Under the pieces are notes generated by a model, which searched no databases, was not told where the DNA came from, and was given only the letters and a program-made list of their open reading frames with translations. Shown piece by piece: positions 7,550-50,793 of a DNA stretch of 60,810 bases (its first letter is position 1; the number at the start of each line of letters is the position of its first letter). The translations under genes and the position numbers were made by a program. The DNA is from Desulfamplus magnetovallimortis (lineage in GTDB: Bacteria; Desulfobacterota; Desulfobacteria; Desulfobacterales; Desulfobacteraceae). The stretch lies in assembly GCF_900170035.1 (NCBI RefSeq), contig NZ_LT828547.1, forward strand, positions 128,893 through 189,702, written 5' to 3'.

Positions 7550-8008
7550 TTAATCTTTCTTGATGTTTTTTCCTATGTTTTCAGAAAAAAACTTCATGGG
7601 ATCAATGTCTTGTAATGTTTTTCCTGCAAAAGCAGACAGATCCATACCCATCTCAAAATAGGCATTGACCTGGTCATCCATTCTCTTTCTGTAGAAGAGA
7701 TAGTTTTCTATGGTTTTTTCCAGATATTTTTCAAAAAATTCATGTAGATGGCTTTCACCGTACTGAATAATAAGATGGAGAAGGGAGACAGGTATCAGAG
7801 CATTATCTTCCTTGGCCTTATTCATGATTATCTGGGTAAGTACCTGGGATGTGACATCTTCTCCACTGTTCACATCAATCACTTCCACCCTGTTATTTTT
7901 TTTAATCAGCAGAGCAACATCTTCAAGGGTGATATATGCACTCTGGTCTGTGTTATATAGCCTTCGGTTGGGATACTTTTTAATTATTATCTTGTTCGTA
8001 ACACTCAC
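7550..8008 (-). CDS. phaR: PHA synthesis repressor PhaR
   Basis: A 152-residue DNA- and PHA-binding regulator. The N-terminal PHB/PHA accumulation regulator domain is plain: IIKKYPNRRLYNTDQSAYIT (8-27), then LEDVALLIKKNNRVEVIDVNSGEDVT and LTQIIM. The remainder is the helical PHB-accumulation region (LLHLIIQYGESHLHEFFEKYLEKTIENY). Family members repress phasin genes and are released when they bind nascent PHA. The start is GTG, with AAGGA 7 bases upstream; an overlapping ATG is out of frame. It is divergent from the two phasin genes with a 412-bp shared control region that contains a candidate PhaR operator. Confidence 0.93.
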   Translation of the reverse strand: MSVTNKIIIKKYPNRRLYNTDQSAYITLEDVALLIKKNNRVEVIDVNSGEDVTSQVLTQIIMNKAKEDNALIPVSLLHLIIQYGESHLHEFFEKYLEKTIENYLFYRKRMDDQVNAYFEMGMDLSAFAGKTLQDIDPMKFFSENIGKNIKKD

Positions 8009-9264: not shown

Positions 9265-11250
9265 ATGTTAGATCCCAACAATTTATGCAAAACAACCCCT
9301 TTTTTTGATGATAACCTGAACAAGATGCGCAGTGACTTTTTGCTTAATCCAGGTTTTATGCTTGCCCAGATAACTGCTGCAAATAACTTGTTTTCAGGGA
9401 TTATGAAGTATAACAGCGATTTTTTTACGCCACTGATGACAGCCACCTCATACTTCAACAGTGTTGAGCAGTCTCGGCTTCTGGCTGATACTGCAAAGCT
9501 GGTGTCAAATATTACAGGACAACCGGAAGATGGCAAATCAGGATTCTCTTTTTTTCCCTGGGCATTGCAGGGAGGTCAGGATACCTCAGACAGTATAAAA
9601 GCTGATGATAGTATAAAAAAGGAGGAAAGCGAAAAAGAGTCTCCTTTTGAGGTCTGTAAAGCCTATCTTAAACTTCTTGAGTTCAACATTGAGCTGTTCA
9701 ACAGATACAATTCCGGAACAATGCAGGCAATCGGCGATGTTACGAAAAAAGATCTTGAAGGCTATTTTACAGCTCTTCAAAACACCCTCTGTAATAAGGA
9801 AGGTGATACCCTTGAAAAATTTTTCCTGCGTCAGTTTGACAGGATAAAAGGCGTGGTTGATACCCTTCCTGAAGCCATACAGGATATTGAATCCGAGTAT
9901 GGCTTTCATTTTGAGAGAAAAATCAATCCATTGATTGCTGAAACAGACCGCTTTTTTCTTTACCAGATAATGCCCACAACGCCCGGGGTAAATGTTGACG
10001 AAGGTGCAAAACCTCTGCTTATCATTCCGCCTTTTGTGCTGGGGAGCAATATCCTTGGATTTTTGCCAGGTGAAAACAGAAGTTATGCCCACAGTTTTGC
10101 CAATCAGGGAATTCCCACATATATAAGGATCATGAAGGATATTGCAATAACGCCTGCCTTTCAGTTGATGACAATGGAAGAAGATCTTCTTGATACCCGT
10201 TTTTTCTGTGAGAAGATCATGGCCAGAAACAAAAAAAAGGTTACTCTGAATGGTTACTGTCAGGGTGGATACAGTGCTGTGTGCAATATTCTTTCAGGGG
10301 AGCTGGATAGTGTGGTTGATGCACTTATCACATGTGTTGCTCCAATGGATGGAACCAGAAGTAAAGGCCTTGGAGAATTTTTGGAAAAACTGCCGTCAAG
10401 GTTCAATGATCTTGATTTTGGTACAAAAACCTTGCCTAATGGGAATAAAGTGGCAGACGGTAACCTTATGGGGTGGGTCTATAAGATCAAAAGCATTGAG
10501 CATGAAGCTCCAATGGTGGCATTTTTCAGGGATATGTTCATGGTGGAAGGAGCAAGGGAGAAGGGCAAGCCCATCAGCAAAACAGCTTTGGCTCTTAATT
10601 ACTGGCTACGGAACGAGAGAACAGATATACCCCTTGCTATCACAGGAATGAGTTTTGCAGCCTACAACATACCTGTGACTGAAGATGGGACTCTTCCTGT
10701 TACCATTTTTGGCAAGTCTCTCAATTTTAAAACAATAAATGAGAAAAAGATTCCTTGGCTTTTATGTTACGGAGAGCAGGACGATCTTGTAGAAAAAGAG
10801 ACAGCTCTTGCCCCCACTGACTATATTGATGTTGAGCTTACCCCTTTTCCCAAGGGTCATGTGGCAATTGCCACATCATGGTCACATCCAGAATCTGCAT
10901 GTGCCCTGCATACGCGCTTTGGAAAGGGAAATTACAGAGGGCCTGTCAAGTTTCAGATGGATCTCAATGATGAGATTGAGAAAAAGAGTATTTCTACTCC
11001 AAAGCCCCTTGCATCTTCCAAAACATCTGAGGCTGTAAAAACATCTGAGGCTGTAAAAACATCTGAGCCTGCAAAAACATCTGAGGCTGTAAAAACATCT
11101 GAGGCTGTAAAAACATCTGAGCCTGCAAAAACATCTGAGGCTGTAAAAACATCTGAGCCTGCAAAAACATCTGAGCCTGTAAAAACTTCTGCACCTGTAA
11201 AAGTAAAATCAGTTAAAGCAATGGTGCAAAAAAAAATCGGGCAAAAATAA
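9265..11250 (+). CDS. phaC: PHA synthase PhaC with a long Lys/Thr/Ser/Glu-rich repeat tail
   Basis: A 661-residue PHA synthase that polymerises (R)-3-hydroxyacyl-CoA on the granule surface. The nucleophile elbow is Gly-Tyr-Cys332-Gln-Gly-Gly. The catalytic Asp lies in GEQDDLV (Asp506 by alignment with the D-H-I-V motif), and His532 is in FPKGHVAI. The first 150 residues hold phasin-like helices (FNSVEQSRLLADTAKLVS). The start at 9265 (MLDPNNLCK) has CGGAG upstream; the longer reading frame is repeat DNA. After residue 585 come ten six-residue units of the type KTSEAV/KTSEPA, then a basic end KVKSVKAMVQKKIGQK. The repeats are not part of the synthase fold; a granule, DNA or protein contact is only a guess. 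Family II repeat follows the gene. Confidence 0.92.
   Translation: MLDPNNLCKTTPFFDDNLNKMRSDFLLNPGFMLAQITAANNLFSGIMKYNSDFFTPLMTATSYFNSVEQSRLLADTAKLVSNITGQPEDGKSGFSFFPWALQGGQDTSDSIKADDSIKKEESEKESPFEVCKAYLKLLEFNIELFNRYNSGTMQAIGDVTKKDLEGYFTALQNTLCNKEGDTLEKFFLRQFDRIKGVVDTLPEAIQDIESEYGFHFERKINPLIAETDRFFLYQIMPTTPGVNVDEGAKPLLIIPPFVLGSNILGFLPGENRSYAHSFANQGIPTYIRIMKDIAITPAFQLMTMEEDLLDTRFFCEKIMARNKKKVTLNGYCQGGYSAVCNILSGELDSVVDALITCVAPMDGTRSKGLGEFLEKLPSRFNDLDFGTKTLPNGNKVADGNLMGWVYKIKSIEHEAPMVAFFRDMFMVEGAREKGKPISKTALALNYWLRNERTDIPLAITGMSFAAYNIPVTEDGTLPVTIFGKSLNFKTINEKKIPWLLCYGEQDDLVEKETALAPTDYIDVELTPFPKGHVAIATSWSHPESACALHTRFGKGNYRGPVKFQMDLNDEIEKKSISTPKPLASSKTSEAVKTSEAVKTSEPAKTSEAVKTSEAVKTSEPAKTSEAVKTSEPAKTSEPVKTSAPVKVKSVKAMVQKKIGQK
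11020..11199. repeat. 18-bp in-frame minisatellite in phaC (10 units)
   Basis: Ten units of AAAACATCTGAGGCTGTA, varying only at the last two codons (GCT GTA, CCT GCA or CCT GTA), encode KTSEAV/KTSEPA/KTSEPV. Higher-order order is AV, AV, PA repeated twice, showing recent duplication of a 54-bp block. Confidence 0.9.
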
Positions 11251-11449: not shown

Positions 11450-13864
11450 CTATGCGATTTTAAAACCCACAGTTTTGCTGTAAATGGCCTTGCCGTCCCC
11501 CGGGGCATAAAAGTCCTCAAGAACAACATTGCAGTTATACCCACACCGCTCGTAAAAGGCTCTGGTGGATGCATAACCTGGCTGCATTGATGTCTCCACA
11601 TACACCTTAAGTCCACCTGCTTCGCTTATGAGGCGCTCCATTTCCGAAAGTATTATTTTTCCAAGTCCTCTGCCCTGAAGATCCGGGGAAACAGCAACCC
11701 AGTAAATATCGTGGCTTGTTAGTGTGCATGGAACAGGGCCGTAGCATCCATAACCTGTTATTTTATCCCCCTTGCGGGCTATGACAAAAAAATATCCGCT
11801 CTCTGCTCCCTTTTCAAGGCGCTCCCTTACAAGTTCCAACGCTATTTTTATTTCATCCGGCCTGAAAAAACCTGTACTTTCAACAAGTTTCTCGATTTTT
11901 TCCACATCTCCGTCAATTGGTTCATAACTTATTTTCATGCCTTTATGACTTAAATCATGCAGAGATTTTCGGCCTGTGACACTGAAGACAACATCTGCCA
12001 TGCCCTGAAAAAAATTCCTTGCATTTATCCCGAGGTTTCTGGTTCTGTATCCTCCCTCCTGAATAACAAGAACCGGAAGTCCTGTTTCACCGATCATGCG
12101 TCCGTTCATGCGAAAATCTGAAGGAGTAAGTGACCATGTACCTGTTGGATCATGGCGTGCAGTATCAAGACCCAGAGCAACCACAAGGAAATCTGGTTCA
12201 AAATCAGATATACGCCTAAGTGCCCTGGAAAGAGCCTTGACATACTCTTCTCCGTTAACTGCCTCCTCAAGGGGGATATTGAGATTAAAACCCTCTCCTT
12301 CATCAGCTCCGACTTCATCTTCAAAACCTGTGAAATATGGATAGGCAAAAGCTGGGTGACCATGTATTGAGACTGTCAATATGTCAGAACGGTTATAAAA
12401 AATATCCTGCTGCCCGTTTCCATGATGATAATCAATGTCAAGGATTGCAACTCTTCCATGCTCCCGCAGAAACTGGGCTGCAATGGCAGTATTGTTTAGA
12501 TAACAAAATCCCCCAAAGGCGCGTCTTTCTGCATGATGACCAGGGGGGCGAACCAGTGCATATGATACCCTCCTCCCCTCAAGAAGTGCCTTTGCTGCTG
12601 TGAGAGCGGCATCAACTCCTCCCCTTGCAGCCGGATATGCATTTCTGTTAATGGGTGTAAAGGTATCAATGCAGTAGTAGCCAGGAAGAACGGTTGTCTC
12701 GCGGGGTGGGCGGGTCTTGTTTCTGATGGGAAAAACATATGGATATAGCGATTTCCCCTCGGCTGTCTCTTCACATGCTGATACAAGATATGCCAAATAG
12801 TCGGCATCATGTATGCCGTGGATGTGGGTATCTGGAAAAGCCTCTGTCTCCATAATATCAAAAAGACCGGTTTTTTCAATTTCAGAAAGTATGCTTCTTA
12901 CACGTACAGGCGATTCCACATAACCCCTTTCATGTATATGGTGAATCTCGTGGCGTTTATTTATTACAAGGGCAATTTTCTCTTTGAGCCCTGAATCAAC
13001 ATTTTTTTTGACTTTTTCCGGCCTGACATGGCAAAACGGCCTTATCTTTACAGGATTTTGCTTTATGGAAGTCACCACCATCTCAACATAATCAGGAGGG
13101 CAAAGCTCTGCATATTTTCGTTCCAGTATGGCACGAACAACCCTTCTTGCGTGATTTCGGCTTAAAGGTTTGTCACTGCCCAGAGCATCGTAAACAAGAA
13201 AGGGAGAGCATGAACCGTAAGAATCAACCTTGTCAGGATGGGGATCACCAACATCAGCTTTGTCAGAAGGGGCATCACCAACATCTTTTTTATCAGAAGG
13301 CACATTCCCAACATCTACTTTGTCAGAAGGTAGAGCTTTAATGTCGGCCTTATTATTGTTGTCAGAAATCCACTGCCCAACCGAAATTTCATAAGCTGTG
13401 CCGGCTATTGGGCGCGCTCCATACCTTTCATAAAAACGTAGCCGGGCAACATTTTCCTTTAAAATCTCGGGGTCACAGGCGCCTTGAGTATCTGGAAGGC
13501 ACTCAAAGAAAAGCCCACGCACCCCAAGGGATGAGCATTCACTTCTGACACGCTCATACAGGGCACTTCCAAGCCCGCCGCGCAGTGTGTCCCTTGCCGT
13601 GGCAATCCAGTCCAGGAAACAGAAATTGATTTCCGGCTCATGGAGTACCATGGCAAAGCCAAGCACCTTGTGGCGCATGTTTTCAGCCACAAAAAGAATC
13701 GGACGAAACCTAAGCTTGAAAGGGTTCCTCAGTTTGTCTCCAATATGGATGATATCCTCTTCAGGAGCCTGGGGAAAACGTTTGTTTAAAATCCCTCTGA
13801 CCTGATTCAAGGCATCCCTATTAACAGGGATAACATCATCAAAAATACGTCTTATGCGAAACAT
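11450..13864 (-). CDS. GNAT-deacetylase-GNAT triple-domain fusion protein
   Basis: An 804-residue cytosolic protein with three enzymes. Residues 1-165 are a GNAT-like acetyltransferase (RGGLGSALYERVRSEC, then RLRFYERYGARP). Residues 280-630 are a class II histone-deacetylase/acetylpolyamine amidohydrolase domain with all key residues: His443-His444 in PPGHHAE, zinc ligands Asp478 and His480 in DIDYHHG, Asp572 in RHDP and Tyr606 in EGGYRTR. Residues about 650-795 are a second GNAT (VAVSPDLQGRGLGK, then FYERCGYN). The first linker carries four 10-residue units of the DVGxxPSDK type. It follows two ATP-grasp ligases and kamA on the same strand, 98 bp after the last ligase with a hairpin between. 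Acetylation and deacetylation of an amine made by this operon is inferred. Confidence 0.88.
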   Translation of the reverse strand: MFRIRRIFDDVIPVNRDALNQVRGILNKRFPQAPEEDIIHIGDKLRNPFKLRFRPILFVAENMRHKVLGFAMVLHEPEINFCFLDWIATARDTLRGGLGSALYERVRSECSSLGVRGLFFECLPDTQGACDPEILKENVARLRFYERYGARPIAGTAYEISVGQWISDNNNKADIKALPSDKVDVGNVPSDKKDVGDAPSDKADVGDPHPDKVDSYGSCSPFLVYDALGSDKPLSRNHARRVVRAILERKYAELCPPDYVEMVVTSIKQNPVKIRPFCHVRPEKVKKNVDSGLKEKIALVINKRHEIHHIHERGYVESPVRVRSILSEIEKTGLFDIMETEAFPDTHIHGIHDADYLAYLVSACEETAEGKSLYPYVFPIRNKTRPPRETTVLPGYYCIDTFTPINRNAYPAARGGVDAALTAAKALLEGRRVSYALVRPPGHHAERRAFGGFCYLNNTAIAAQFLREHGRVAILDIDYHHGNGQQDIFYNRSDILTVSIHGHPAFAYPYFTGFEDEVGADEGEGFNLNIPLEEAVNGEEYVKALSRALRRISDFEPDFLVVALGLDTARHDPTGTWSLTPSDFRMNGRMIGETGLPVLVIQEGGYRTRNLGINARNFFQGMADVVFSVTGRKSLHDLSHKGMKISYEPIDGDVEKIEKLVESTGFFRPDEIKIALELVRERLEKGAESGYFFVIARKGDKITGYGCYGPVPCTLTSHDIYWVAVSPDLQGRGLGKIILSEMERLISEAGGLKVYVETSMQPGYASTRAFYERCGYNCNVVLEDFYAPGDGKAIYSKTVGFKIA
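13235..13330. repeat. 30-bp in-frame minisatellite in the deacetylase fusion
   Basis: About four units encoding PSDKVDVGNV, PSDKKDVGDA, PSDKADVGDP and PDKVDS, in the linker between the first GNAT and the deacetylase domain. Confidence 0.8.
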
Positions 13865-13887
13865 TTTTTACTCTTATCCACCAAATA

Positions 13888-13916
13888 AAAAGGGCAGATA
13901 TTAAGTCTGCCCTTTT
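13888..13916 (-). terminator. Hairpin between ATP-grasp ligase B and the deacetylase fusion
   Basis: On the minus strand AAAAGGGCAGA, a 7-base loop and TCTGCCCTTTT followed by TATTTGG: an 11-bp perfect stem with T-rich 3' side. It is placed after the third gene of the operon and 24 bp before the fourth, so it could be a terminator, an attenuator or a stem that sets the level of the downstream gene. Confidence 0.65.
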
Positions 13917-13962
13917 GAATTTTCAGTTTTCAATAATTACTTCAAAGCTTCTCAATAATTCT

Positions 13963-15090
13963 CTATTGTTGTCTTAAATCTGGCATCAGACACGCAATAA
14001 TATGTTCCACTCCGCTTTTATAAGATATGCCTGCCCTCTCCATTGCGGCTGCAAATCCGGCATCCGGAGAGATACATGGATTGGCGTTTATTTCAAGGAT
14101 AAAGGGATTGCCCTCTTCATCCACCCTGAAATCCACACGGGCATACCCCTTTAGATCAAAACAGTGCCAGCATCCAATGGCAAGCTTTTCAAGTCTTTTT
14201 AGAAGAGGCTCATCTTCTGGAATAAATTCAAAATTTCGGGATGTATTGCGGTATTCTTCTGCATCTTCCACCCATTTTGCTCTATATCCAACAATTTTTG
14301 CCTGATTTTCATTAAATCCCTTGAAAACTATTTCAGCAGGTGGAAGAACCCATGGTTCCCCTGAATGAGACTCTCCTGTACAATTGCCTGGAAGATTATC
14401 ATCATCATTTTGTGGATAATCCTTACCCGCCAGGAGGGAAATATTGAACTCTCTGCCGCTGATGAAACGCTCTGCAAAACAGCTTCCCCCAAGAGCTGGT
14501 GCCCTTTCAGGAAGAATTTTCGCAATTTCACAGGAAGTGCCTTTAACCAGGTTCTCCTGTTCAAGCCCAAGGGAAGCGTGCTCCCACAAGGATTTTATAA
14601 TCCACACTACAGATTTTTCTTTTTCATATGCATTATCATTACTGCCGGCATGCATGATTGTTTCTGTTTCTCTGTTTTCGATTGTATCCACATCGGGGCA
14701 GTTTTTAATGGGTTTAATCCATTCTGCTGTGGGAAGCCCCCATGCTGCCATTCTCTCCTTGGCCATAACCTTGTTGGAGGTTATGTATATAGAATCTGCT
14801 GTACATCCTGAGTAGGGAATATTTAAAGCATCAAGAAGATCCGGCACCACATGAATAAGCCTTCCATGGCCGTCAAGTGATTCCACAAGGTTGAAAACAG
14901 CAGCAGGGGCAATCTCTGCAAGCTTTTCTGAAAGTGCGTTCAGGTTAAGGTCACATGGTAATGCCACTGGCAGAAAGCCAAGCTCTTCAAGGGCATTGGA
15001 GACAGCTTTTACCTGAAATAGCACATCCTCTTCATCCGGAAGACTTATATCCCTTACTGCATTATGAACAACAGCGATAACCTTTTTCAT
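13963..15090 (-). CDS. ATP-grasp ligase B (D-Ala-D-Ala ligase-like)
   Basis: A 375-residue ATP-grasp carboxylate-amine ligase. The N-terminal domain starts MKKVIAVVHNAVRD and carries AVFNLVESLDGHGRL, DALNIPYSGCTADS and TSNKVMAKERMAAWGLPTAEW, as in D-Ala-D-Ala ligases. The ATP-grasp core has CFAERFISGREFNISLL, and the metal-binding end is RVDFRVDEEGNPFILEINANPCISPDAG. The start at 15090 is chosen because GGAGAGG lies 5-6 bases upstream and the ATG overlaps the previous stop as ATGA. A D-Ala-D-Ala ligase role in the wall is unlikely given the context; joining an amino acid to another amino compound is the likely chemistry. Substrates unknown. Confidence 0.87.
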   Translation of the reverse strand: MKKVIAVVHNAVRDISLPDEEDVLFQVKAVSNALEELGFLPVALPCDLNLNALSEKLAEIAPAAVFNLVESLDGHGRLIHVVPDLLDALNIPYSGCTADSIYITSNKVMAKERMAAWGLPTAEWIKPIKNCPDVDTIENRETETIMHAGSNDNAYEKEKSVVWIIKSLWEHASLGLEQENLVKGTSCEIAKILPERAPALGGSCFAERFISGREFNISLLAGKDYPQNDDDNLPGNCTGESHSGEPWVLPPAEIVFKGFNENQAKIVGYRAKWVEDAEEYRNTSRNFEFIPEDEPLLKRLEKLAIGCWHCFDLKGYARVDFRVDEEGNPFILEINANPCISPDAGFAAAMERAGISYKSGVEHIIACLMPDLRQQ

Positions 15091-16196
15091 GCAGCCTCTC
15101 CAAAAGCCACTTTCTGGCAACATATATCCGAATTGTCTGCTGTTTTTGATGGATATCTCTTTTGTTCTGAAGTATGACTCTTTATCTCTTGAAATTCACC
15201 ATATGATTTTTTTACTCTTTCAATTGCTGATGAAAGTATCATTTCAATGAGCTGAAAATGTGATATCCCGAAAAAACGGCAGAGAATCGGCAGATCAGAG
15301 TAGGTTGGATTAAGTCCGGCAAGGGGATTAACCTCTATGAATGCGGGCTTGCCAAAACGATCACAACGAATATCAATGCGTCCGCCATCTCTGCATCCTA
15401 ATACCTTCCATGATGAGAGGGCAAGTCTTTCCACATCCATAATGAGAGGCTCATTTTCGGGAGTAACCGGGCTGTATTCAACCCGTCCCTTCCATTCTGC
15501 CTTGTTCTCAAAGGAATAAATATCTTTTTCCGCTTTTTCCAGAAGATGAATCTCCATTGTGCCCAAAACACGGGCATCCCTTCCTGTTCCCACAATTCCA
15601 ACAGTAAACTCCCTTCCGGAAAGAAACTCCTCCACAAGTACAGGCTGCCGGAACTGTTCCATAAGCTCCCTACATACAGAAGGAAGATCATCTCTGGAAC
15701 GGACAATTGATTTTGCTGTTATGCCCATTCCTGTACCTTCTGCAACAGGTTTGACAAAAAAAGGCGGTTCAAAAGAAAGAGTCTCCGCAGGTCTGTCATA
15801 TTGGGATTCAATAACCATAAAATTTGCAGTTGCAAGTCCTGCATCCCGAATCACCCGTTTTGTCAGACCTTTATGCAAAGTAAGGGCAAGAACCAGAGGA
15901 TCTGAAAATGTGTAAGGGATTCCATACATATCCAGAATTGCAGGAACCTGGGCTTCTCTTGCCACTCCATTCAATCCTTCTGCAAAGTTGAAAACAAGAT
16001 CCCAGCGTTCTCCTTTTACAAGGCGTTCTGTCAGACTTCGGCCGGTTCCAATGCACACTGTTTCATGTCCAAGGCTTTGGAGAATATTCTCAATGGATTC
16101 AACTGTCTCAAGAGAATCAAACTCGGCTGTTGCCAATTCGCTGTATCCCATGTCAAGATATTCCTGACGCAGGTCATAAGTAAGGCCAATGATCAT
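15087..16196 (-). CDS. ATP-grasp ligase A (D-Ala-D-Ala ligase-like)
   Basis: A 369-residue paralogous ATP-grasp ligase. It opens MIIGLTYDLRQEYLDMGYSE and has LVFNFAEGLNGVAREAQVPA, YGIPYTFSDPLVLALTLHKG, the ATP-binding FVKPVAEGTGMGIT, VLVEEFLSGREFTVGI and the Mg-binding GRIDIRCDRFGKPAFIEVNP. The last 40 residues (RVKKSYGEFQEIKSHTS...) are a charged tail. Start and stop both overlap neighbours by 4 bp (ATGA) with kamA upstream and ligase B downstream, so translation is coupled and the three proteins are likely made together. It differs throughout from ligase B, so the two probably add different substrates or act as a heteromer; both are inference. Confidence 0.87.
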   Translation of the reverse strand: MIIGLTYDLRQEYLDMGYSELATAEFDSLETVESIENILQSLGHETVCIGTGRSLTERLVKGERWDLVFNFAEGLNGVAREAQVPAILDMYGIPYTFSDPLVLALTLHKGLTKRVIRDAGLATANFMVIESQYDRPAETLSFEPPFFVKPVAEGTGMGITAKSIVRSRDDLPSVCRELMEQFRQPVLVEEFLSGREFTVGIVGTGRDARVLGTMEIHLLEKAEKDIYSFENKAEWKGRVEYSPVTPENEPLIMDVERLALSSWKVLGCRDGGRIDIRCDRFGKPAFIEVNPLAGLNPTYSDLPILCRFFGISHFQLIEMILSSAIERVKKSYGEFQEIKSHTSEQKRYPSKTADNSDICCQKVAFGEAA

Positions 16197-17818
16197 GATG
16201 CTCCCCCTTTTTCACTAAAAAGAGATGTTTCATAGATATTTTTATTATTAAGAGCACGATCATTACTATTTCTGTACCTGTTTACAGGAAGAGTTACAGA
16301 ATTATTCACAGGAAGACTTACTGAATTGTTAACAGGAAGACTTACGGAATTGTTAGCAGGAACGTTTTCAAGTTCGTTTACGGGATCCGGATAACGGAAC
16401 ATACGGTTCTCATAATTTTTAAGCACAAGCTCTTCTGGTGTATGCTCCTGAACATAATTAGGCATAAGCGGAATCTTTCCTCCACCGCCAGGGGCATCAA
16501 TAACGTATGTGGGCACTGCATATCCTGTTGTAAAACCTCTTAATCCCTGAATAATCTCAAGGCCCTTATCAATGGTTGTACGAAAATGTCCGGAGCCTGT
16601 AATGGGATCACACTGGTAAAGATAGTAGGGGCGCACCCGCATCTTCATAAGATTTTGAACCAACTGTCTCATAGTTCCCACAGAATCATTGATACCCTTT
16701 AAAAGAACGCTCTGGGAACCCAGAGGAATACCTGCATCTGCAAGCATGGTGCAGGCTTTGTGGGTCTCAGGGGTACACTCGTCAGGATGGGTAAAATGGA
16801 GACTCATCCAGAGAGGGTGGTATTTTTTTAGCATCTTGACAAGTTTTGGTGTAATACGCTGGGGCAGAACAGCCGGAACCTTTGTGCCGATACGGATCAC
16901 CTCAACATGGGGGATTGTGCGCAACCTTGAGAGTACCCATTCCAGACGATCATCACTTAGAGTAAGGGGATCACCTCCGGAAAGAAGCACATCACGGATT
17001 GTCGGGGTGTTTCGGATATACTCAATGGCTTTTTCCCAGCGACTTCGGCCAGCATGAATTCCGCCATGACCAACAACGCGTGATCGTGTGCAGTATCGGC
17101 AATAGGTGGAACAGAAATCAAGCAGCAGAAAAAGCACTCTGTCAGGGTAACGATGCACAAGCCCTGGTATGGGACTTTGATGATCTTCTCCAAGGGGGTC
17201 ATCGGACTCACAGGACATTTTGATCCACTCATCCATCCTTGGCACAACAGATCGGCGCAGGGGCTGGTCAGGATCATTTGCCGATATCAGGCTCAGATAG
17301 TATGGAGTAATGCTCAATGGAAGCTGTGATTCCGTATTAACAAGGGATTCATCCGGAGAAAGTACCAGCATCCTGCTCAATTTTTCATATGTTTTTATAC
17401 GGTTACTGATCTGCCACTGCCAGTCATTCCATTCTCTGTCTGTGACATCAGAATAAAATTTGCGCCTGAACGCCCTGGTTTGAGGGGTGCTTCTTGGATT
17501 TGATATGCGTCGGTTAATCTTTAGCTGGTTGATATTTAGCCTTGCTGCTGGAATGGTGGTGGTCTGTTTCAAAGTGACTGAGTCAAATGCAGATGGAACT
17601 ACATGTTGAAAATGGTTGGCATCATTGTGAAAATGGTTGGAATCACTGGAATCAAGTGATGATGCTGAGGCATTGGGGAAACCTGAATCAAGGTAGTCTG
17701 TTGAATCAATGATTTTGGAAAAATTGTCAGGATGATTTATAAAGCGGCCTCTACTGGGAGGTTCGTCATCATCAAACAACATGGCTTTTTCGGCTGGTAC
17801 TGCTTGTCCCTCTTGCAT
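16193..17818 (-). CDS. kamA: Lysine 2,3-aminomutase (radical SAM/PLP)
   Basis: A 541-residue radical SAM enzyme that moves the alpha-amino group of L-lysine to give L-beta-lysine. The cluster motif is Cys236-STY-Cys240-RY-Cys243-TR. SAM-binding SGGDPL is at 280-285. The PLP lysine is Lys448 in DAPGGGGKIP. Two aspartates known to hold the lysine side chain in clostridial KamA, Asp404 (YQCDPITG) and Asp441 (DAPGG), are both present, arguing against a glutamate mutase. An unusual N-terminal extension of about 115 residues, His/Asn/Ser-rich, precedes the family start, and a 3-copy NNSVSLPV repeat follows near 490-520. AAGGAG lies 6 bases from the ATG. It is the first gene of a tight operon with two ligases. 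Confidence 0.92.
   Translation of the reverse strand: MQEGQAVPAEKAMLFDDDEPPSRGRFINHPDNFSKIIDSTDYLDSGFPNASASSLDSSDSNHFHNDANHFQHVVPSAFDSVTLKQTTTIPAARLNINQLKINRRISNPRSTPQTRAFRRKFYSDVTDREWNDWQWQISNRIKTYEKLSRMLVLSPDESLVNTESQLPLSITPYYLSLISANDPDQPLRRSVVPRMDEWIKMSCESDDPLGEDHQSPIPGLVHRYPDRVLFLLLDFCSTYCRYCTRSRVVGHGGIHAGRSRWEKAIEYIRNTPTIRDVLLSGGDPLTLSDDRLEWVLSRLRTIPHVEVIRIGTKVPAVLPQRITPKLVKMLKKYHPLWMSLHFTHPDECTPETHKACTMLADAGIPLGSQSVLLKGINDSVGTMRQLVQNLMKMRVRPYYLYQCDPITGSGHFRTTIDKGLEIIQGLRGFTTGYAVPTYVIDAPGGGGKIPLMPNYVQEHTPEELVLKNYENRMFRYPDPVNELENVPANNSVSLPVNNSVSLPVNNSVTLPVNRYRNSNDRALNNKNIYETSLFSEKGGAS
16284..16372. repeat. 24-bp in-frame minisatellite at the end of kamA
   Basis: Three and a half units encode PANNSVSL, PVNNSVSL, PVNNSVTL, PV after the catalytic core of KamA. 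Confidence 0.8.
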
Positions 17819-18465: not shown

Positions 18466-18708
18466 TCATTCGATCATTCTATCATATTCATCAGGGGTTA
18501 CATCTGGAACTTGAGACATTACAGTCAAAAAACCTTCTCCCGTAGCTCGTTCAGCCCTCTCTTCAAGATATGGGTCTGGTAGAAGCTTATGTAGTTTTTC
18601 AGCAAGTGAAGCCGCAATTATTTCATCTATTGATATATTATTTAACTTCAATATCTCATATGTCTTTTGATATAATTTATCAGGAATGTTTATCAATAAT
18701 TCTGCCAT
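18466..18708 (-). CDS. Putative antitoxin of the PIN toxin
   Basis: An 80-residue acidic protein: MAELLINIPDKLYQKTYEIL, then NNISIDEIIAASLAEKL and a C-terminal tail PDVTPDEYDRMIE. The N-terminal strand and two helices resemble the short DNA-binding segment of ribbon-helix-helix type antitoxins, and the acidic end would cover the toxin. Its ATG overlaps the toxin stop by one base (TAATG), so translation is coupled. The order is toxin first, which is less usual but known for PIN pairs of this type. The stop touches a family III repeat fragment. Confidence 0.7.
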   Translation of the reverse strand: MAELLINIPDKLYQKTYEILKLNNISIDEIIAASLAEKLHKLLPDPYLEERAERATGEGFLTVMSQVPDVTPDEYDRMIE

Positions 18709-19139
18709 TATATTTCTCCTATCTCTTTTAAAAAATCTTTAGGGTTCATTATGCTGACACCAAAGGCATTTGCTCTTATAAAATTTTTTGTATTGTATGT
18801 AATAATATAATCTGCCGAACAAGAAAAAGCCAGTTCAAGGATAAAATCATCATCAGCATCTTTAAGATGAGGTCTAAGCAAATAAAAAATTTGATGCCTG
18901 TTTGCACATGCAACCAGATCATCTATGAACTTATCAATAATTGAAAGATTTTTACCTTGCCGATGAATTTCTCGTTTTAAAACAGCTTCATATTCAAGAA
19001 CAATAGAAGTAGATACATTAATCTTAAAACGAGCATCTTTTTCTTTTAATAGATTTAACAAGCGAAATGATGCCCCATTTTTAGAACGTAACGCAGCAAC
19101 AAAGACATTTGTATCTATGATGATTTGATAAGTTTTCAA
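18708..19139 (-). CDS. PIN-domain toxin (COG1569-like)
   Basis: A 143-residue PIN-fold ribonuclease. IIIDTNVFVAALRSKNGAS near the start gives the first metal-binding Asp9 and Asn11. A mid-protein Glu in IVLEYEAVLKREI is the second site, and LKDADDDFILELAFSCSADYIITYNTKNF supplies the distal acidic cluster. VapC-type proteins of this class cut RNA and are held by a cognate antitoxin, here the gene that follows. It lies 57 bp upstream (in transcription) of nothing larger; the AAA gene ends just before it. The start MKTYQIIIDTN lacks a clear ribosome site but no other start fits. Confidence 0.85.
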   Translation of the reverse strand: MKTYQIIIDTNVFVAALRSKNGASFRLLNLLKEKDARFKINVSTSIVLEYEAVLKREIHRQGKNLSIIDKFIDDLVACANRHQIFYLLRPHLKDADDDFILELAFSCSADYIITYNTKNFIRANAFGVSIMNPKDFLKEIGEI

Positions 19140-19196: not shown

Positions 19197-20930
19197 CTAA
19201 ATACCAGCCACATTGATCTTAAACACCCGCCATCCCTGATTCCCGATACAGTAAATCACATATTGTGAGATTTTGGCCTCTGGATATTCTACTGCAAGGC
19301 CGTCAACATATCCTGCAATCTGTTTTGTATCTTCATCCTGCAATGTAAAATCTTCAATGGTGGTTTTTAGCCTTTTAAATTCTGCATTGGAAAGATACTT
19401 AAACTCTATTACCATGCGAATTCCTGCAAAGCACTCATTGTACTTTCCCACAAATTCAAGGTCACTTCTGCCCTTGGGGTAGGAGCGCTCTACATTCCAG
19501 GTGAACCACTCAGAGAGGTAACGGCTGCAAAGTTCATAAAAGGTGGTACGATAAAAGTTTTCGTTGACCTTCTGGAATATGGCTTCTGGAAGCTGTGATA
19601 TATAACGATCCCAGTATGCAGCAAAAAGGGCGCTTAAATCCAAATCCTTCAAAAATTGTTGCATGGCATTGGTGTAACCTGTTGAGACATCAATTGCGTG
19701 GAGTTCGTTAAAATATTCTGCAAAAATTTTACGCATGTTCATGTTGGGCAGCTTTAAATTGAAACTGTCAAGACGGGTAAGCATTCCAAGATAATAAAAA
19801 GATATGGGGAAAAAACCTTTTTCAAAAAATTGGGACATATTAAACTTGGCGGTGAGAAAATTTTTGTCATACTCAATGGTATTATGAACCATTAACTGAT
19901 CTACAAACCCCTTTGTAAGGTCAGGATTGGAGCCTGTTATCCTTCTTACCCACTCAAGGTCGGTTTTAAGGTTCATGTCTGTAAGGTACTCAGGATAGGC
20001 ACGGTACCTTGTAAAATAGTGGAGAAAGTAGATTAAAATTGTGGAGTTATATACAGGTTCGCCATTGGGATGTATGAAGTGGTAGCCGTTGTACTGGTTT
20101 TTTATAAGGGCATCGGTTTCGCTTCGGGTATCTGGATCCATTTCATAATCATGGTAAATTTCATCAAGCAGGCGATCCACCTCGGCCTGGGTAAAACCAA
20201 GCATGTTCTCAAACTCCGGCTCTAAGGTTATGATGGTGGCAATGTTGAAGCCAGATGCAAGCTCATCAATGGTCACCGGCAAAACTCCAGTTATAAAGAC
20301 ATTCCGGATGGTTTGACTCTTTCTTCCCTCTTTCAAGGTCTTGAAAAAGGTTTTTAAAAAACCCTTAGAGGACATGAGCTGGTGGTAAAGGTGATCCTCA
20401 TGGGAGACAATGAGCTGATTGGCAAAGTTGTCGTACTCGTCAATAATTACAAACAGAGGCGGGAGATTATCTCTTTTGACTGTTTTAAGAATACTCTGGA
20501 GATTGTTTACAGCACTTTTGTCAAGGTCTATGGTAATCTGATCCTGAAACCATTGCTGATTAAAAAAAACAAGATTGTCCAACTGGGCATTGCATACATG
20601 GTTGAAACTTTTCTCTATGGTTGCCATATCCCCCACTTCTATTACGGAAAAGTCAAGATGCAGCACAAAACAGGAACTATGCAGGGGCGTGGGTTTTTTG
20701 CCGATCCATGTGTGGCCGAAAAGCTCATGAAAATCATCTTTTTTCCGGATGTCGTAATAGGCTTCCAGCATGGTGCAGAGAAGGGATTTGCCGAACCTTC
20801 TGGGACGCAGAAAAACTGGATTTTTGATACGTTCTAATTTCTCTATGTATTGAGTTTTATCCACAAAATAACCGTTTTCTTGTATAATCGCCTCATAACT
20901 TGCCTCGGCGTATAATATGCGTTTTTTCAT
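19197..20930 (-). CDS. AAA-ATPase/PD-(D/E)XK nuclease-like protein, copy 1 (DUF1703)
   Basis: A 577-residue protein of the AAA-ATPase-like family joined to a C-terminal nuclease fold. The P-loop is RRFGKS at 44-49 after MKKRILYAEASYEAI, which is the usual start. Walker B is PLFVIIDEYDNF. The distal domain has PKGRSDLEFVGKYNECFAG followed by MVIEFKY, the E-x-K of PD-(D/E)XK enzymes. Families like this are often present in dozens of copies in large anaerobe genomes; their role is unknown and may be mobile-element or defence related. The start at 20930 follows GGAGAG; upstream in-frame codons come from a repeat. It shares long, nearly identical DNA with the next copy. The TonB-type or other genes nearby give no clue. 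Confidence 0.88.
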   Translation of the reverse strand: MKKRILYAEASYEAIIQENGYFVDKTQYIEKLERIKNPVFLRPRRFGKSLLCTMLEAYYDIRKKDDFHELFGHTWIGKKPTPLHSSCFVLHLDFSVIEVGDMATIEKSFNHVCNAQLDNLVFFNQQWFQDQITIDLDKSAVNNLQSILKTVKRDNLPPLFVIIDEYDNFANQLIVSHEDHLYHQLMSSKGFLKTFFKTLKEGRKSQTIRNVFITGVLPVTIDELASGFNIATIITLEPEFENMLGFTQAEVDRLLDEIYHDYEMDPDTRSETDALIKNQYNGYHFIHPNGEPVYNSTILIYFLHYFTRYRAYPEYLTDMNLKTDLEWVRRITGSNPDLTKGFVDQLMVHNTIEYDKNFLTAKFNMSQFFEKGFFPISFYYLGMLTRLDSFNLKLPNMNMRKIFAEYFNELHAIDVSTGYTNAMQQFLKDLDLSALFAAYWDRYISQLPEAIFQKVNENFYRTTFYELCSRYLSEWFTWNVERSYPKGRSDLEFVGKYNECFAGIRMVIEFKYLSNAEFKRLKTTIEDFTLQDEDTKQIAGYVDGLAVEYPEAKISQYVIYCIGNQGWRVFKINVAGI

Positions 20931-20950
20931 TTTTCTCTCCGTATCATGTG

Positions 20951-20994
20951 CAACCTCACCCCCCAGCCCCCTCTCCATGACTGGAGAGGGGGAG
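20951..20994. repeat. CCCTCTCCA/TGGAGAGGG inverted repeat
   Basis: CAACCTCACCCCCCAGCCCC then CCTCTCCATGACTGGAGAGGGGGAGAA. This is a common interspersed GC-rich hairpin in bacterial genomes and is far more GC-rich than its surroundings. It lies just upstream of the copy 1 ATPase start. Confidence 0.75.
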
Positions 20995-21354: not shown

Positions 21355-23091
21355 TTAACCCTTAATCTTAAAAATCCGCCAACCTTGATTCCCGATACAG
21401 TATATAACATACTGGGAGACCTTTGCCTCTGGATATTCTGTTGCAAGCCCCTCAACATATCCTGCAATCTGCATCGTATCTTCATCCTGCAATGTAAAAT
21501 CGGAAATGGTGGTCTTGAATTTTTTAAACTCTGCATTGGAGAAATATTTAAACTCAATGACCAAGCGAATCCCGGCAAAGCACTCACTGTATTTTCCCAC
21601 AAACTCAAGATCAGATCGACCTTTGGGGTAGGATCGCTCCACATTCCATATGAACCAGCGTGAAAGATAACGGCTGCAAAGTTCATAAAATGTAGTGCGG
21701 TAGAAATTTTCATTTACCTGCTGGAATATGGCTTCCGGAAGCTGGGAGATGTAATGTTTCCAGTATGAAGCAAAAAGGGCTTCTAAATCAAGATCATTGA
21801 TAAAACGCTGCATACTCTCCTGATAACGTGTTGAAACGTCAATTTGATACAACTCATTGAAATACTCAACAAATATCTTACGCATATTCATGTTGGGAAG
21901 GGTCAGGTAAAAATCATCTAATTTGGTGAGCATCCCAAGATAGTAAAATGATATGGGAAAAAAGCTCTTATCAAAAAACTGGGACATGTTAAACTTGGCT
22001 GTTAAAACATTTTTGTCAAATGCTATCCTGTTATTCATGGTCAACTGCCCCACAAACCCCTTTGTCAGGTCAGGATTGGAACCTGTTATCCTTCTTACCC
22101 ACTCAAGATCGGTTTTAAGATTCATGTCAGTGAGGTACTCAGGATAGGCACGGTACCTTGTAAAATAGTGGAGAAAGTAGATTAAAATTGTGGAGTTATA
22201 TACAGGTTCACCATCACCATCGGTTTTCAAGAAATGGTAACCGTTGTACTGGTTTTTTATAAGGGCATCGGTTTCGCTTCGGGTATCTGGATCCATTTCA
22301 TAATCATGGTAAATTTCATCAAGCAGGCGATCCACCTCGGCCTGGGTAAAGCCAAGCATGTTCTCAAACTCCGGCTCTAAGGTTATGATGGTGGCAATGT
22401 TGAAGCCAGATGCAAGCTCATCAATGGTCACCGGCAGAACACCGGTAATAAAGACATTCCGGATGGTTTGACTCTTTCTACCCTCTTTCAAGGTCTTGAA
22501 AAAGGTCTTTAAAAAACCCCTGGAGGACATGAGCTGGTGGTAAAGGTGATCCTCATGGGAGACAATTAGCTGATTGGCAAAGTTGTCGTACTCGTCTATA
22601 ATTACAAACAATGGTGGCAGATACTCCTCCTCTATGGAGTTAAGAAGTGCCTTAAGATTTTCCGATGCCCTGCCCTTTATATCAACCTCTGGTTCATGTT
22701 TAAAAAAACTGCTGTTTTGGCGTATCAATTTTTTAATACGCAGATTACAAGTGTTATTAAAACTATGCTCAATATCCAAAAGATTTCCCGATGAAGAATC
22801 TACCGTTGACATATCAAGATGCAGCACAAAACAGGAACTATGCAGGGGCGTTGGATTTTTGCCGATCCATGTGTGGCCGAAAAGCTCATGAAAATCATCT
22901 TTTTTCCGGATATCGTAATAGGCTTCAAGCATGGTGCAGAGAAGGGATTTACCGAATCTTTTGGGACGGAGAAATACAGGGTTGTTGATACTTTCCAATT
23001 TTTCAATGTACTCTGTTTTATCCACAAAATAGCCGTTTTCCCGTACAACTGCCTCATAACTTGCTTCGGCATATAAGATGCGTTTTTTCAT
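21355..23091 (-). CDS. AAA-ATPase/PD-(D/E)XK nuclease-like protein, copy 2 (DUF1703)
   Basis: A 578-residue paralogue of the preceding protein with the same order: MKKRILYAEASYEAVVREN, P-loop KRFGKS, Walker B PLFVIIDEYDNF and a C-terminal nuclease fold with LVIEFKY. Between residues about 110 and 180 the two copies differ strongly (here NLLDIEHSFNNTCNLRIKK), while the ATPase core from FITGVLPVTIDELASGFNIA to DLTKGF is almost the same at DNA level. That mosaic fits gene conversion. Start at 23091 follows GGAGATAACA. The stop is directly followed by a family II end. Confidence 0.88.
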   Translation of the reverse strand: MKKRILYAEASYEAVVRENGYFVDKTEYIEKLESINNPVFLRPKRFGKSLLCTMLEAYYDIRKKDDFHELFGHTWIGKNPTPLHSSCFVLHLDMSTVDSSSGNLLDIEHSFNNTCNLRIKKLIRQNSSFFKHEPEVDIKGRASENLKALLNSIEEEYLPPLFVIIDEYDNFANQLIVSHEDHLYHQLMSSRGFLKTFFKTLKEGRKSQTIRNVFITGVLPVTIDELASGFNIATIITLEPEFENMLGFTQAEVDRLLDEIYHDYEMDPDTRSETDALIKNQYNGYHFLKTDGDGEPVYNSTILIYFLHYFTRYRAYPEYLTDMNLKTDLEWVRRITGSNPDLTKGFVGQLTMNNRIAFDKNVLTAKFNMSQFFDKSFFPISFYYLGMLTKLDDFYLTLPNMNMRKIFVEYFNELYQIDVSTRYQESMQRFINDLDLEALFASYWKHYISQLPEAIFQQVNENFYRTTFYELCSRYLSRWFIWNVERSYPKGRSDLEFVGKYSECFAGIRLVIEFKYFSNAEFKKFKTTISDFTLQDEDTMQIAGYVEGLATEYPEAKVSQYVIYCIGNQGWRIFKIKG

Positions 23092-23150
23092 TGTTATCTC
23101 CATATTATTTGAAAACAAGAACCCGCCATCTCTGATTGCAGAATTGGTAC

Positions 23151-43454: not shown

Positions 43455-45858
43455 TCGATTTTATCTCCAGAACTGATTCTGCAAGCTGCACGATCTCGTC
43501 AATCATGAAATTCTCAGCCATTTCATTGATTTTATCCTTAAATCGGGACGTTACAGCTCCTTTTTCAATTTTTGCTGCCCACTCCTGAATACCAGTAATA
43601 TCCCCCTGTTTTGCAACCTGCAAAAGCATATCTATATCACCAATGGCATTTGCAATGTGTTGTTTATCCTCATTGGAAAAAGAGGCGTTGCCATTTTCAG
43701 ATTCTGCCGATAGTTCATCCTTGGCACTTTGAACAGAGTCATCAGCTCCATATATCCAGCCGATATCTTTATACTTTGACAGCACTGTAAAAAGGGAGTG
43801 AAGGCTTACAGGCTTTGTAAGAAAAGCATCACATCCTGCCCTGAAACTCTTCTCCCTGGAATCATTTACAACACTTGCCGATATGGCAATTATCAGGGTA
43901 TCTTTCAACGCAGGATCGTTGCCCTTGCGAATTCTGTGAACTGCCTCAAATCCGTTCATCTCCGGCATCATAAGATCCATGAGAATTACGTCCGGAATTA
44001 TCTCATGTGCCAACTTTATGCACTCTTTGCCATTGGCGGCCATATAGACATTAAAGCCCATTGGCTCAAGAGCATCCCTTAAAAGCTCGCGGTTGTTTAG
44101 GTTGTCATCAGCCACAAGTATTCGGAAATCTTGATTGGATATTCCCATGATCTTCTGGTCAGGGGCAAGGGTTATCTCCCTTGCATTTGTCTCAGGCAGA
44201 TGGATGGAAAAACTGAATGTGCTTCCTTCACCAGGTGTTGACTTCACAACAAGCTCACTTCCCATCAACTGAACCAAGCGCTTGCAGATTGCAAGACCAA
44301 GACCTGTTCCCTGAAGGCTATCATTAATGCTCCCCGCCTGTTCAAAGGGATGAAATATCTTTTCAAGGTCTTTTTTATCAATACCGGAACCTGTATCTCT
44401 TATTGAAAAGGATATCCACTCTGAACCACCTGTAGCCTCCCTGAAGGCAGCAGGGACATCGTTATCTCTTTCCACATGATACTCCACGCCTCCTGCATGG
44501 GTAAACTTTACCGCATTATCAAGGATATTGAAAAGCACCTGCCGAATCCTGACTTCATCCCCTAAAACCCAGCTTGGCAAATCTTCGGCTGCATGGAGTA
44601 CAAAACCTATGTTTTTCTTTCGTGCCTTTATGCGGGTAATTGCGGCAGTTGATTCCAGAAGTTCACCAAGGGAAAACTCAACAGGATTCAGTTCCATCTT
44701 TCCTGCTTCAATCTTGGAGAGATCCAGGATATCATTGATCATCAAAAGCAGATGCTCTCCGCTCTGGCTTATTATTTTTAGCTGCTTAAGCTCGGTCTCC
44801 TGAAGATTACCGTTGCGCTCCATTATTTGTGTATAGCCAAGAATTCCGTTGAGAGGGGTTCTGAGCTCATGGCTCATACTGGCCAAAAATGCACTCTTGG
44901 CACGGTTTGCAACTTCAGCCTTGTCCTTTGCCCCGATCAGCTCCTGATTGAGCTTCTGAAGGGAACGGGTTCTCTCCATGACTTTCTGTTCAAGCTCAAC
45001 CTTGTGATTTTCAAGCTCCTGATCCCTCATCTGGATCTCGTTGATCATGTTGTTAAAGGCTCTGATCATATAGTGAAGTTCATCATTGAAAATATCCATA
45101 CAGGGGACCCGAAGGGAGTAATTTTTCTCTTTTGTTATGGTTTTTACAGCATTGGTCAAAGAGGCAATGGGCCCTGCCACAACCTTCATGGATTTTGAAA
45201 AAAACATGTAAATTACAAGACCTGTCAAAAGAAGAATAACAAGATTGTAACCTACATACCAACGGATAAGCTCAATGATTCTATCCTTTCCTGCAATAAT
45301 CAACAGATGGCCTAAGTATGTACCATTAAACAAGATGGATGAATGACACTCAAGCCTTTTGAAGCAGTGGTTCAATCCATCTGGCTGAAGAGGCCATTTT
45401 GCAAGGGTTTCCGGTGTAACATCACTGTTTTCATAACTGCTTTCATAACTGCTGTTATCTCTTTTCTTATCACTTTTCTCATCACTTTTCTCATCACTTT
45501 TTTTATCAGCATGATCCTCTGGTGAATTACGGATGTAGGTAGCAAAAACCTTGCCTTTTTCATTGTAAATGGCAGCAGCTATGATATCGTTGTTTTCCCT
45601 GAGGGCATTGAGATTTTCCACAGCCGCATCCGGATCATTAAAATAGAGGGGAGCCTCAACATTTTTCTCCATAACAGAAGCAAGGGAAATAAAGCCGTAG
45701 TTCAGGGTTTTTTTCATGATATAAAAATCATTGATCACAAAAAAAGTCCCTGCAAAGACAAGTGCTATGCCGTTACTTATCAGTATCATCAGAAAAATTT
45801 TGGTTTTCAGGCTTCGATTTGCCAAAAGGGAACGCATAAGCCGGTTTACAATATTCAT
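43447..45858 (-). CDS. Membrane hybrid histidine kinase (HAMP-HisKA-HATPase-REC, Hpt-like tail)
   Basis: An 803-residue kinase. TM1 [19 protein letters not shown] near 20-40 and TM2 [16 protein letters not shown] near 195-215 flank a small sensor region, which includes a low-complexity [17 protein letters not shown]-like run. HAMP follows, then coiled coil, HisKA with [18 protein letters not shown], HATPase with NILDNAVKF and [15 protein letters not shown] with [13 protein letters not shown] and [12 protein letters not shown], and a helical tail ([20 protein letters not shown]) that may be a degenerate phosphotransfer domain. The start at 45858 ([10 protein letters not shown]) is chosen because the residues upstream are repeat DNA; its ribosome site AGGAG is rather far. 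BarA/EvgS-like. A family I element separates it from yfiR. Confidence 0.88.
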
Positions 45859-50727: not shown

Positions 50728-50793
50728 ACTCAAAATCGACACTTAGTTGCATTTTTGGTATTTGGGCTTTTTACAGGGGCATCATCTTTGAGT
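50728..50793. repeat. Minimal 66-bp family II element
   Basis: ACTCAAAATCGACACTTAG at the left and ATCATCTTTGAGT at the right, with none of the usual interior. Its right end is two bases from the threonine aldolase TAA. It shows that the ends alone can persist or move. Confidence 0.65.

Follow-up and report, generated by a model that had tools for sequence, protein, structure and literature searches.

Lysine 2,3-aminomutase (KamA) and an acetyltransferase of the GNAT family, as in the AblA/AblB pair, make the osmolyte N-epsilon-acetyl-beta-lysine, and N-acetylglutaminylglutamine amide (NAGGN) is made by a GNAT/ATP-grasp protein together with an asparagine-synthetase-like partner. An excerpt of PMC3543383 proposes ablAB in Pelobacter carbinolicus, and, according to an excerpt of PMC11532494, enzymes of the acetylpolyamine amidohydrolase class deacetylate acetylputrescine and acetylcadaverine and form head-to-head dimers through their long loops, with Glu106 of the Mycoplana enzyme making a salt bridge to the polyamine. 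Here we compare with these systems a minus-strand gene cluster of Desulfamplus magnetovallimortis, which lies in a stretch of 60,810 nucleotides (contig NZ_LT828547.1, positions 128,893 to 189,702; hereafter "the window," meaning the whole stretch) and encodes a predicted KamA, two ATP-grasp ligases (LigA and LigB) and a fusion protein in which a zinc deacetylase is flanked by two GNAT domains (GNAT1 and GNAT2). On balance, we lean slightly toward the view that the cluster is a small, self-contained non-ribosomal pathway that makes an acetylated beta-lysyl peptide and is supplemented by an accessory module for taking off or shifting acetyl groups.

On the minus strand the genes follow each other in the order kamA, ligA, ligB, fusion, with these positions in the window:

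16193..17818, minus strand: kamA, predicted L-lysine 2,3-aminomutase (radical S-adenosylmethionine enzyme, pyridoxal phosphate (PLP)), 541 amino acids (open reading frame (ORF) list, Pfam, NCBIfam, PDB alignment)
15087..16196, minus strand: ligA, ATP-grasp ligase of the D-Ala-D-Ala-ligase family, 369 amino acids (Pfam, NCBIfam, conserved residues)
13963..15090, minus strand: ligB, second, more divergent ATP-grasp ligase, 375 amino acids from the start at 15090 (Pfam, alignments)
13888..13916, minus strand: terminator-like hairpin of 11 bp followed by a T-run, inside the gap between ligB and the fusion gene (pattern match only)
11450..13864, minus strand: GNAT1-linker-deacetylase-GNAT2 fusion, 804 amino acids (ORF list, Pfam, alignment)

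Pfam returned Radical_SAM and LAM_C for the first gene, D-Ala-D-Ala-ligase-type ATP-grasp domains for the two ligases, and Hist_deacetyl flanked by GNAT domains for the fusion. The kamA/ligA overlap is ATGA. The 5'-most ATG of ligB, used as its start in the ORF list, is at 15123; the alternative start at 15090 (MKKVIAVV...) has GGAG just upstream, matches the aligned starts of four homologous loci (L051, L053, L064, and L065) and yields a second ATGA overlap, with ligA. The ligB stop and the fusion start are separated by 98 bases. The ORFs, Pfam and NCBIfam thus bear out a preliminary description of the window, in which these four genes, both ATGA overlaps and the distance of 98 bp to the fusion had been given. 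Co-transcription of kamA, ligA and ligB is likely. The hairpin and T-run suggest that the fusion gene may to some extent be transcribed apart from the three genes before it (terminator-like patterns numbered 14 in the region vs. 6.7 in shuffles).

The neighborhood is conserved. Among 58 genomes drawn from the relatives of the window, ligB was found in 20, the window's own included; one partial match (G039, E 1.3e-6) was left out of the reading of loci. Seventeen of the 19 loci read around these matches contained kamA; it was missing from L056, which lies at the end of its contig, and from L066, where ligB stands alone, and each of these two genomes has kamA elsewhere. Of 395 genomes sampled evenly across the phylum of the window, 244 were listed by a ligB profile search at E 1e-25, many of them probably for ordinary D-Ala-D-Ala ligase (Ddl) genes, and 139 listed rows of at least 210 bits were used for counting linkage (11 lower rows were left out). 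At 330 bits or more, a line for strong ligB that was set after the scores were seen, 70 matches were listed in 69 genomes, and in at least 63 of the 70 a same-strand kamA was located no more than 6 kb away, in every case upstream. The gap was 1.0–1.5 kb, about the length of ligA, in 55 of those 63 pairs. Conservation of the neighborhood had been named beforehand as a point on which the idea of a pathway would turn, and it is borne out by this sample.

The set extends beyond the phylum. A collection of named genomes gave 15 loci, titled Planctomycetota/Planctomycetes, Thermoguttaceae, Phycisphaerae, Acidobacteria, Thermoanaerobaculum/-ia, and Bacteroidales; kamA lies inside nine of them, and the other six genomes have it elsewhere (in one only partially, at a contig end). 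The order kamA-ligA-ligB-GNAT2 recurs in metagenome-assembled genomes titled Planctomycetota and Acidobacteria. A Planctomycetota sample contained ligA (E 1e-60) in 33 of 246 genomes, and 10 of 20 fetched loci had kamA within 1.5 kb, with two more on a wider reading. In a sample of Bacteroidota, the phylum of the Bacteroidales record, 4 of 198 genomes gave matches, all weaker. No plasmid copies were found at the limits used. The recurring linkage of kamA, ligA and ligB across the samples led us to reject a chance neighborhood. A variant of the cluster, in which a GNAT gene accompanies two ligA-like ligases, was also observed (L162 8691-11256, L163 7665-11328); kamA follows the GNAT gene in L163 and is absent from the L162 locus, the genome of which has one.

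The predicted substrate of KamA is lysine. Its closest solved relative is the lysine 2,3-aminomutase 2a5h (E 2e-146), and the cysteine cluster (CxxxCxxC) is kept as C236/C240/C243. Residues D293 and D330 of 2a5h, which we take to be the lysine-binding aspartate pair, align to D404 and D441, and K337, presumably the PLP lysine, aligns to K448; retention of all these residues had been noted in the preliminary description. The aspartate pair presumably marks lysine, rather than glutamate, as the substrate. Since D404 is found in 44 of 44 KamA rows, and D441 and K448 in 43 (the remaining row, L045, being gapped there), no row that extends to these residues lacks them, and lysine is predicted throughout. 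The protein also bears an N-terminal extension of about 115 amino acids and a repeat-bearing tail, encoded in part by an in-frame tandem repeat with a period of 24 bp (16279-16362). Its score against the AblA equivalog model TIGR03820 is 497.6 bits, below the cut-off of 525.4, with the match stopping at model position 366 of 417. Three other KamA-like genes were seen in the same genome (G000 C5:210826-211479, C7:128833-129921, and C10:37334-39076).

Both ligases keep the residues that we assume to be the ATP-grasp catalytic set, as read from alignment columns (K149, E189, D275, E288, and N290 in LigA). Their closest solved structures are D-Ala-D-Ala ligases, and the small-molecule Ddl enzymes are their best matches. 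On the D-Ala-D-Ala ligase model TIGR01205 (cut-off 245.65), LigA scores 114.7 and LigB 39.1 bits, while two other genes of the same genome exceed the cut-off. Judged by these scores, LigA and LigB are not the D-Ala-D-Ala ligases of the cell, and the plain Ddl identity, which by the preliminary description would have overturned the pathway idea, was discarded. The NAGGN acetyltransferase/ligase models were absent among the listed NCBIfam matches of the fusion (all 3), LigB (all 22) and LigA (the best 25 of 32; E 0.001), and likewise among the best 25 of 31 families matched by the LigB-GNAT2 protein of L055 (E 0.01); a true member of the NAGGN system should be expected among the top-ranking matches.

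The scores also bear on the idea of protein tagging, with the ligases transferring beta-lysine to a protein in the manner of EpmA and EpmB for EF-P. EpmB is a relative of KamA that supplies beta-lysine for EF-P. KamA, however, reaches only 250 bits on the EpmB model (TIGR03821, cut-off 369.3), as against its 497.6 on AblA, and the best matches of the ligases are enzymes acting on small molecules. From these scores of KamA and the ligases, we consider protein tagging very improbable.

Within the fusion, the following parts were distinguished:

13379..13864, minus strand: GNAT1 domain, residues 1-162 (Pfam, homologue alignment)
13223..13330, minus strand: in-frame tandem repeat of 30 bp, 3.6 copies, between GNAT1 and the linker (repeat scan, alignment)
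12965..13213, minus strand: conserved linker of about 83 residues (218-300), with no Pfam family (Pfam, alignment)
12005..12919, minus strand: zinc deacetylase domain, residues 316-620 (Pfam, PDB search)
11453..11929, minus strand: GNAT2 domain, residues 646-804, the core GNAT of the cluster (Pfam, PDB search)

According to our comparison of gene arrangements, the core of the cluster is formed by kamA, ligA, ligB, and GNAT2, usually in this order, while GNAT1-deacetylase is a separate and optional module. LigB and GNAT2 share one frame in many loci, for example, L055, L057, L058, L059, L061, L036, L042, L047, L155, and L160. Row L046, taken in a wrong frame in alignment A2, was omitted from alignment A5. 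The GNAT1-linker-deacetylase is encoded elsewhere as a separate protein of about 570–650 codons, and the module was found in five linked arrangements or unlinked; the cluster of one genome is split:

Between kamA and ligA: L161, L198, L211
Between ligB and GNAT2, as its own gene: L154, L199, L213
Between ligB and GNAT2, fused to GNAT2: the window, L051-L053, L060, L064, L065, L068, L069
After GNAT2: L214
Flanked by two different kamA genes: L212 42-4604
On another contig: G002, G035, G046, G049, G057
Split cluster of genome G588: kamA-ligA-GNAT2 on L200 (2889-6509), with ligB beside GNAT1-deacetylase on a separate contig, L233

In a quick tree of 24 GNAT1-deacetylase proteins, calculated without bootstrap, the nine fusions fall on one branch (Shimodaira–Hasegawa-like approximate likelihood ratio test, 91), and the tree needs eight changes for the six arrangement labels. 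Together with the varied arrangements, this makes the triple fusion of the window look like a lineage-specific join of two pieces. A founding role of the triple fusion was rejected, because the fusions form one branch and the module moves as a unit. The preliminary description had seen its most striking point in the presence of acetylating and deacetylating domains in one chain; this emphasis needs adjusting, as GNAT2 goes with ligB, and GNAT1-deacetylase is optional and occurs as its own gene too.

The optional module nevertheless keeps company with the ligases. GNAT1-linker was detected in 38 of the 395 phylum genomes, the window's own included, and all 38 hold ligB of at least 210 bits, 27 of them strong ligB (Fisher test, 4e-20, a statistic that ignores relatedness). 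Among 242 genomes of the Planctomycetota sample, GNAT1-deacetylase was found in seven, of which six hold ligA, vs. 33 of 246 overall (Fisher test, 2.7e-5, again ignoring relatedness, with the two draws differing by four genomes).

GNAT1 had no significant sequence match in the PDB; the glycines of its coenzyme A loop (G97 and G99) are present in 24 of 24 homologues, and this invariant G-x-G suggests that GNAT1 is probably an active enzyme. The deacetylase retains H443, H444, D478, H480, D567, and Y606, in line with the preliminary description, which had reported all zinc and histidine residues as kept; in the alignment columns that were inspected, these residues and the RPPGHH and EGGY motifs occur in all 24 rows. 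Its best solved relatives are acetylpolyamine amidohydrolases, namely 6phr (E 6.4e-77), 9gkz (which we take to be the PsApaH of PMC11532494) and 3q9b. The match to the "Acetoin utilization protein" entry 5li3 has an E-value of 4.1e-36 and that to HDLP of 1.4e-30, and no entry recognizable as AcuC was seen among the 60 PDB matches listed. A long loop preceding the GYYC motif aligns over its length with the acetylpolyamine amidohydrolases, and the loop sequence GYYC[IL]D[TS]FTP shows little or no variation across the 24 rows, a hint that the substrate may be a dedicated one. The position of Glu106 of 3q9b is occupied by T, S, P or A in these rows (Asp in 6phr, His in 9gkz), and that of Glu117, presumably a polyamine-recognition residue, by Phe402 in all 24 (Asp in 6phr, Gly in 9gkz). 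As these loop residues vary among the solved acetylpolyamine amidohydrolases, the difference is only a hint against polyamine substrates. Overall, the class of the deacetylase points to a small acetylated amine as the substrate.

These comparisons also bear on the assumption that GNAT1-deacetylase is a fused AcuA/AcuC-like pair switching a protein, such as an enzyme of the pathway, instead of modifying a small molecule. Pairs of a GNAT and a deacetylase that regulate an enzyme exist (acuABC), and an optional, sometimes unlinked module would suit such a switch. According to an excerpt of PMC11532494, the related PsApaH also deacetylates a protein in vitro. However, the deacetylase is closest to the acetylpolyamine amidohydrolases and far from 5li3 and HDLP, it shares with the former the long loop over its full length, and in the phylum sample the module was found only in ligase-bearing genomes (38 of 38), which fits a substrate from the ligase pathway. 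A protein switch thus seems unlikely to us.

GNAT2 is homologous to the solved protein 2r7h over nearly its full length (E 2.6e-39). Its relation to AblB matters for another alternative, namely a plain osmolyte pathway in which GNAT2 replaces AblB, N-epsilon-acetyl-beta-lysine is the product and the ligases are used otherwise. KamA with a GNAT recalls the AblA/AblB pair, a search of the window's genome for AblB (TIGR03827) at E 1e-5 was negative, and GNAT2 matches the AblB model faintly (16.6 bits, cut-off 205.1). On the other hand, ligB and kamA are near-constant partners here, and the fusions of GNAT2 are with ligB and not with kamA. AblB was found in 2 of 22 cluster genomes tested. G024 holds AblB together with the canonical cluster, and G389 holds a kamA-ablB pair (G389:C1:1654251-1656375) together with the variant cluster L163. 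Genomes that carry both suggest that the AblB and ligase systems are not simple alternatives. AblAB under another name is disfavored by the results of the AblB search in the cluster genomes and by the sub-cut-off score of GNAT2, and we regard the plain osmolyte pathway as rather improbable.

The surroundings of the cluster were considered in relation to the possibility that the product is secreted, as a beta-lysine-containing metal chelator or bioactive peptide. Streptothricin and viomycin are examples of antibiotics with a beta-lysine unit, and transporter genes were seen at single loci (an MFS transporter near L158 and an ABC-2 membrane gene near L149). Against this, the set of genes is widespread and varies little, and 12 neighboring genes scanned against Pfam (2 + 10) had no common theme. 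No conserved extra gene beyond the set was found among the loci compared, and no exporter, regulator or peptidase was recurrent among the few neighbors examined. TetR-like genes, recognized by eye, lie upstream of kamA in at least four loci (all-against-all clustering, which was swamped by antisense ORFs). With nothing recurrent outside the set except these genes, an intracellular solute or store is mildly favored over an exported antibiotic, and a secreted product appears quite improbable.

The acetylated beta-lysyl peptide pathway that we favor may be outlined as follows. KamA, as predicted from its conserved residues, would convert L-lysine to beta-lysine. LigA and LigB would then perform two ATP-driven steps, joining beta-lysine to one additional amino acid or amine, or to two. 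GNAT2 would acetylate the product on an amino group, for which the terminal amine left free on the beta-lysyl unit is the likeliest site. In genomes with the optional module, the deacetylase may remove the acetyl group from the aminoalkyl tail of the same product or an intermediate, and GNAT1 may put acetyl on, allowing the acetylated pool to be recycled or the acetyl group to be moved. An acetylated beta-lysyl tail resembles acetylputrescine and acetylcadaverine; an enzyme of the acetylpolyamine amidohydrolase class is, therefore, a plausible partner. The likeliest role would be that of an intracellular acetylated beta-lysyl dipeptide or tripeptide serving as a protective solute or amine store. 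A version of the same scheme that we consider doubtful treats acetyl as a protecting group: GNAT1 would cap beta-lysine on its terminal amine and thereby direct the ligases to the correct nitrogen, the deacetylase would uncap it after ligation, and GNAT2 would set the final acetyl, with the three domains joined in one chain in the lineage of the window. The preliminary description had proposed a ligated product containing beta-lysine with reversible acetylation and an osmolyte, storage or signal role. One product may be reversibly acetylated and may serve in one of these roles, and a beta-lysine-containing, ligated and acetylated product stands as the best reading, while the weight placed on the triple fusion needs correcting.

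Several observations weigh against this reading. The families and the neighborhood cannot say what the ligase substrates are, in which order they are coupled, or which nitrogen is acetylated, and, unless it is regulated, a chain bearing both GNAT1 and a deacetylase would run a futile cycle. The hairpin, as a pattern match, precedes the fusion gene. Linkage to kamA falls with the ligB score, to at least 10 of 12 matches at 290–330 bits and at least 31 of 57 at 210–290 bits. Gene order varies as well, being ligB-GNAT2-kamA-ligA in L062 and kamA-ligB/GNAT2-ligA in L201. The lone ligB of L066 departs from the simple picture, and four of nine widened ligA loci of the Planctomycetota sample have no kamA within about 9 kb, the rest of those genomes not having been searched; two of the four (L202 and L203) show ligA alone. 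The module is present in only 27 of the 69 strong-ligB genomes and missing from 42 at this threshold, so the core can do without it, and genome G636 has GNAT1-deacetylase, no ligA at E 1e-60 and no cluster gene in the surrounding 18 kb. Finally, the co-occurrence tests take no account of relatedness.

Some other features were observed in the course of the analysis. In G636 (L240 5971-6906), an ORF resembling RimK-type ATP-grasp proteins by eye lies 1.4 kb upstream of the module. Directly upstream of kamA in the window, a gene with a PIN_3 domain and a small partner without a Pfam match form a toxin-antitoxin-like pair (18466-19139), and two adjacent, closely similar AAA-ATPase_like/PDDEXK_9 genes are located at 19197-20978 and 21355-23118 (Pfam was run on the first only). 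Convergent with the operon, a polyhydroxybutyrate/polyhydroxyalkanoate (PHB/PHA) accumulation regulator domain (PHB_acc_N, 7550-8008) lies near phasin-like and PHA-synthase-like genes recognized by eye.

In-frame tandem repeats occur in several unrelated protein genes of the window. Besides those of the fusion (13223-13330, 30 bp) and kamA (16279-16362, 24 bp), they are found at 11020-11202 (18 bp), in a C-terminus that is PHA-synthase-like by eye (nothing in Pfam at 1e-5), and at 28368-28531 (33 bp) and 45455-45508 (12 bp), in two genes that look sensor-kinase-like. The repeat of the fusion is not present in the other 14 aligned homologues, as if the genome were gaining coding minisatellites. 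A 24/49-bp repeat array (46377-46527) covers the end of frame 46436-46978 and the start of the overlapping same-strand frame 46066-46527, and a gene may be interrupted at this repeat. A 62-bp tandem repeat of about three copies, 93% matching, lies between listed ORFs (50540-50729).

The preliminary description had called the pathway undescribed. Our limited search of the open-access literature found no paper describing the gene set, and its novelty is accordingly provisional. Every part comes from a known family, and the logic is like that of acetyl-beta-lysine and of acetylated-dipeptide solutes; it is the combination that appears new. If the proposal is true, a near-fixed set of enzymes makes an unnamed metabolite in about one in six genomes of the phylum sample (69 of 395, by strong ligB) and in the ligA carriers of the Planctomycetota sample (33 of 246), and the acetyl-beta-lysine osmolytes are extended to peptides. 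New roles would follow for proteins named "D-alanine-D-alanine ligase" or "D-alanine N-acetyltransferase," the solved 2r7h included, and the fusion would be a natural case of small-molecule enzymes that add and remove acetyl on one chain.

The cluster shares features with several known systems and departs from each of them. As in AblA/AblB, a lysine 2,3-aminomutase with its catalytic residues kept would supply beta-lysine to a GNAT; here, in contrast, two ligases are added, and the GNAT goes with ligB and, by its score on TIGR03827, is not AblB. With NAGGN synthesis the cluster shares the logic of making an acetylated dipeptide with an acetyltransferase and an ATP-grasp amino-acid ligase joined in a single protein, whereas the order here is ligase-GNAT and KamA takes the place of the asparagine-synthetase-like partner. 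LigA and LigB resemble D-Ala-D-Ala ligases at the family level, including their closest solved structures, and differ in falling below the TIGR01205 cut-off that two other genes of the genome pass. The GNAT2 homologue 2r7h is called a "putative D-alanine N-acetyltransferase," a name that is annotation only, while the genomic context here suggests a beta-lysine peptide as the substrate of GNAT2. The deacetylase shares its zinc and catalytic residues, the RPPGHH and EGGY motifs and the long loop with the acetylpolyamine amidohydrolases 6phr, 9gkz, and 3q9b ("cluster 4" in an excerpt of PMC11532494), from which it is distinguished by its fusion to GNAT1 and, relative to 3q9b, by the Glu106 and Glu117 sites, which are variable in the class.

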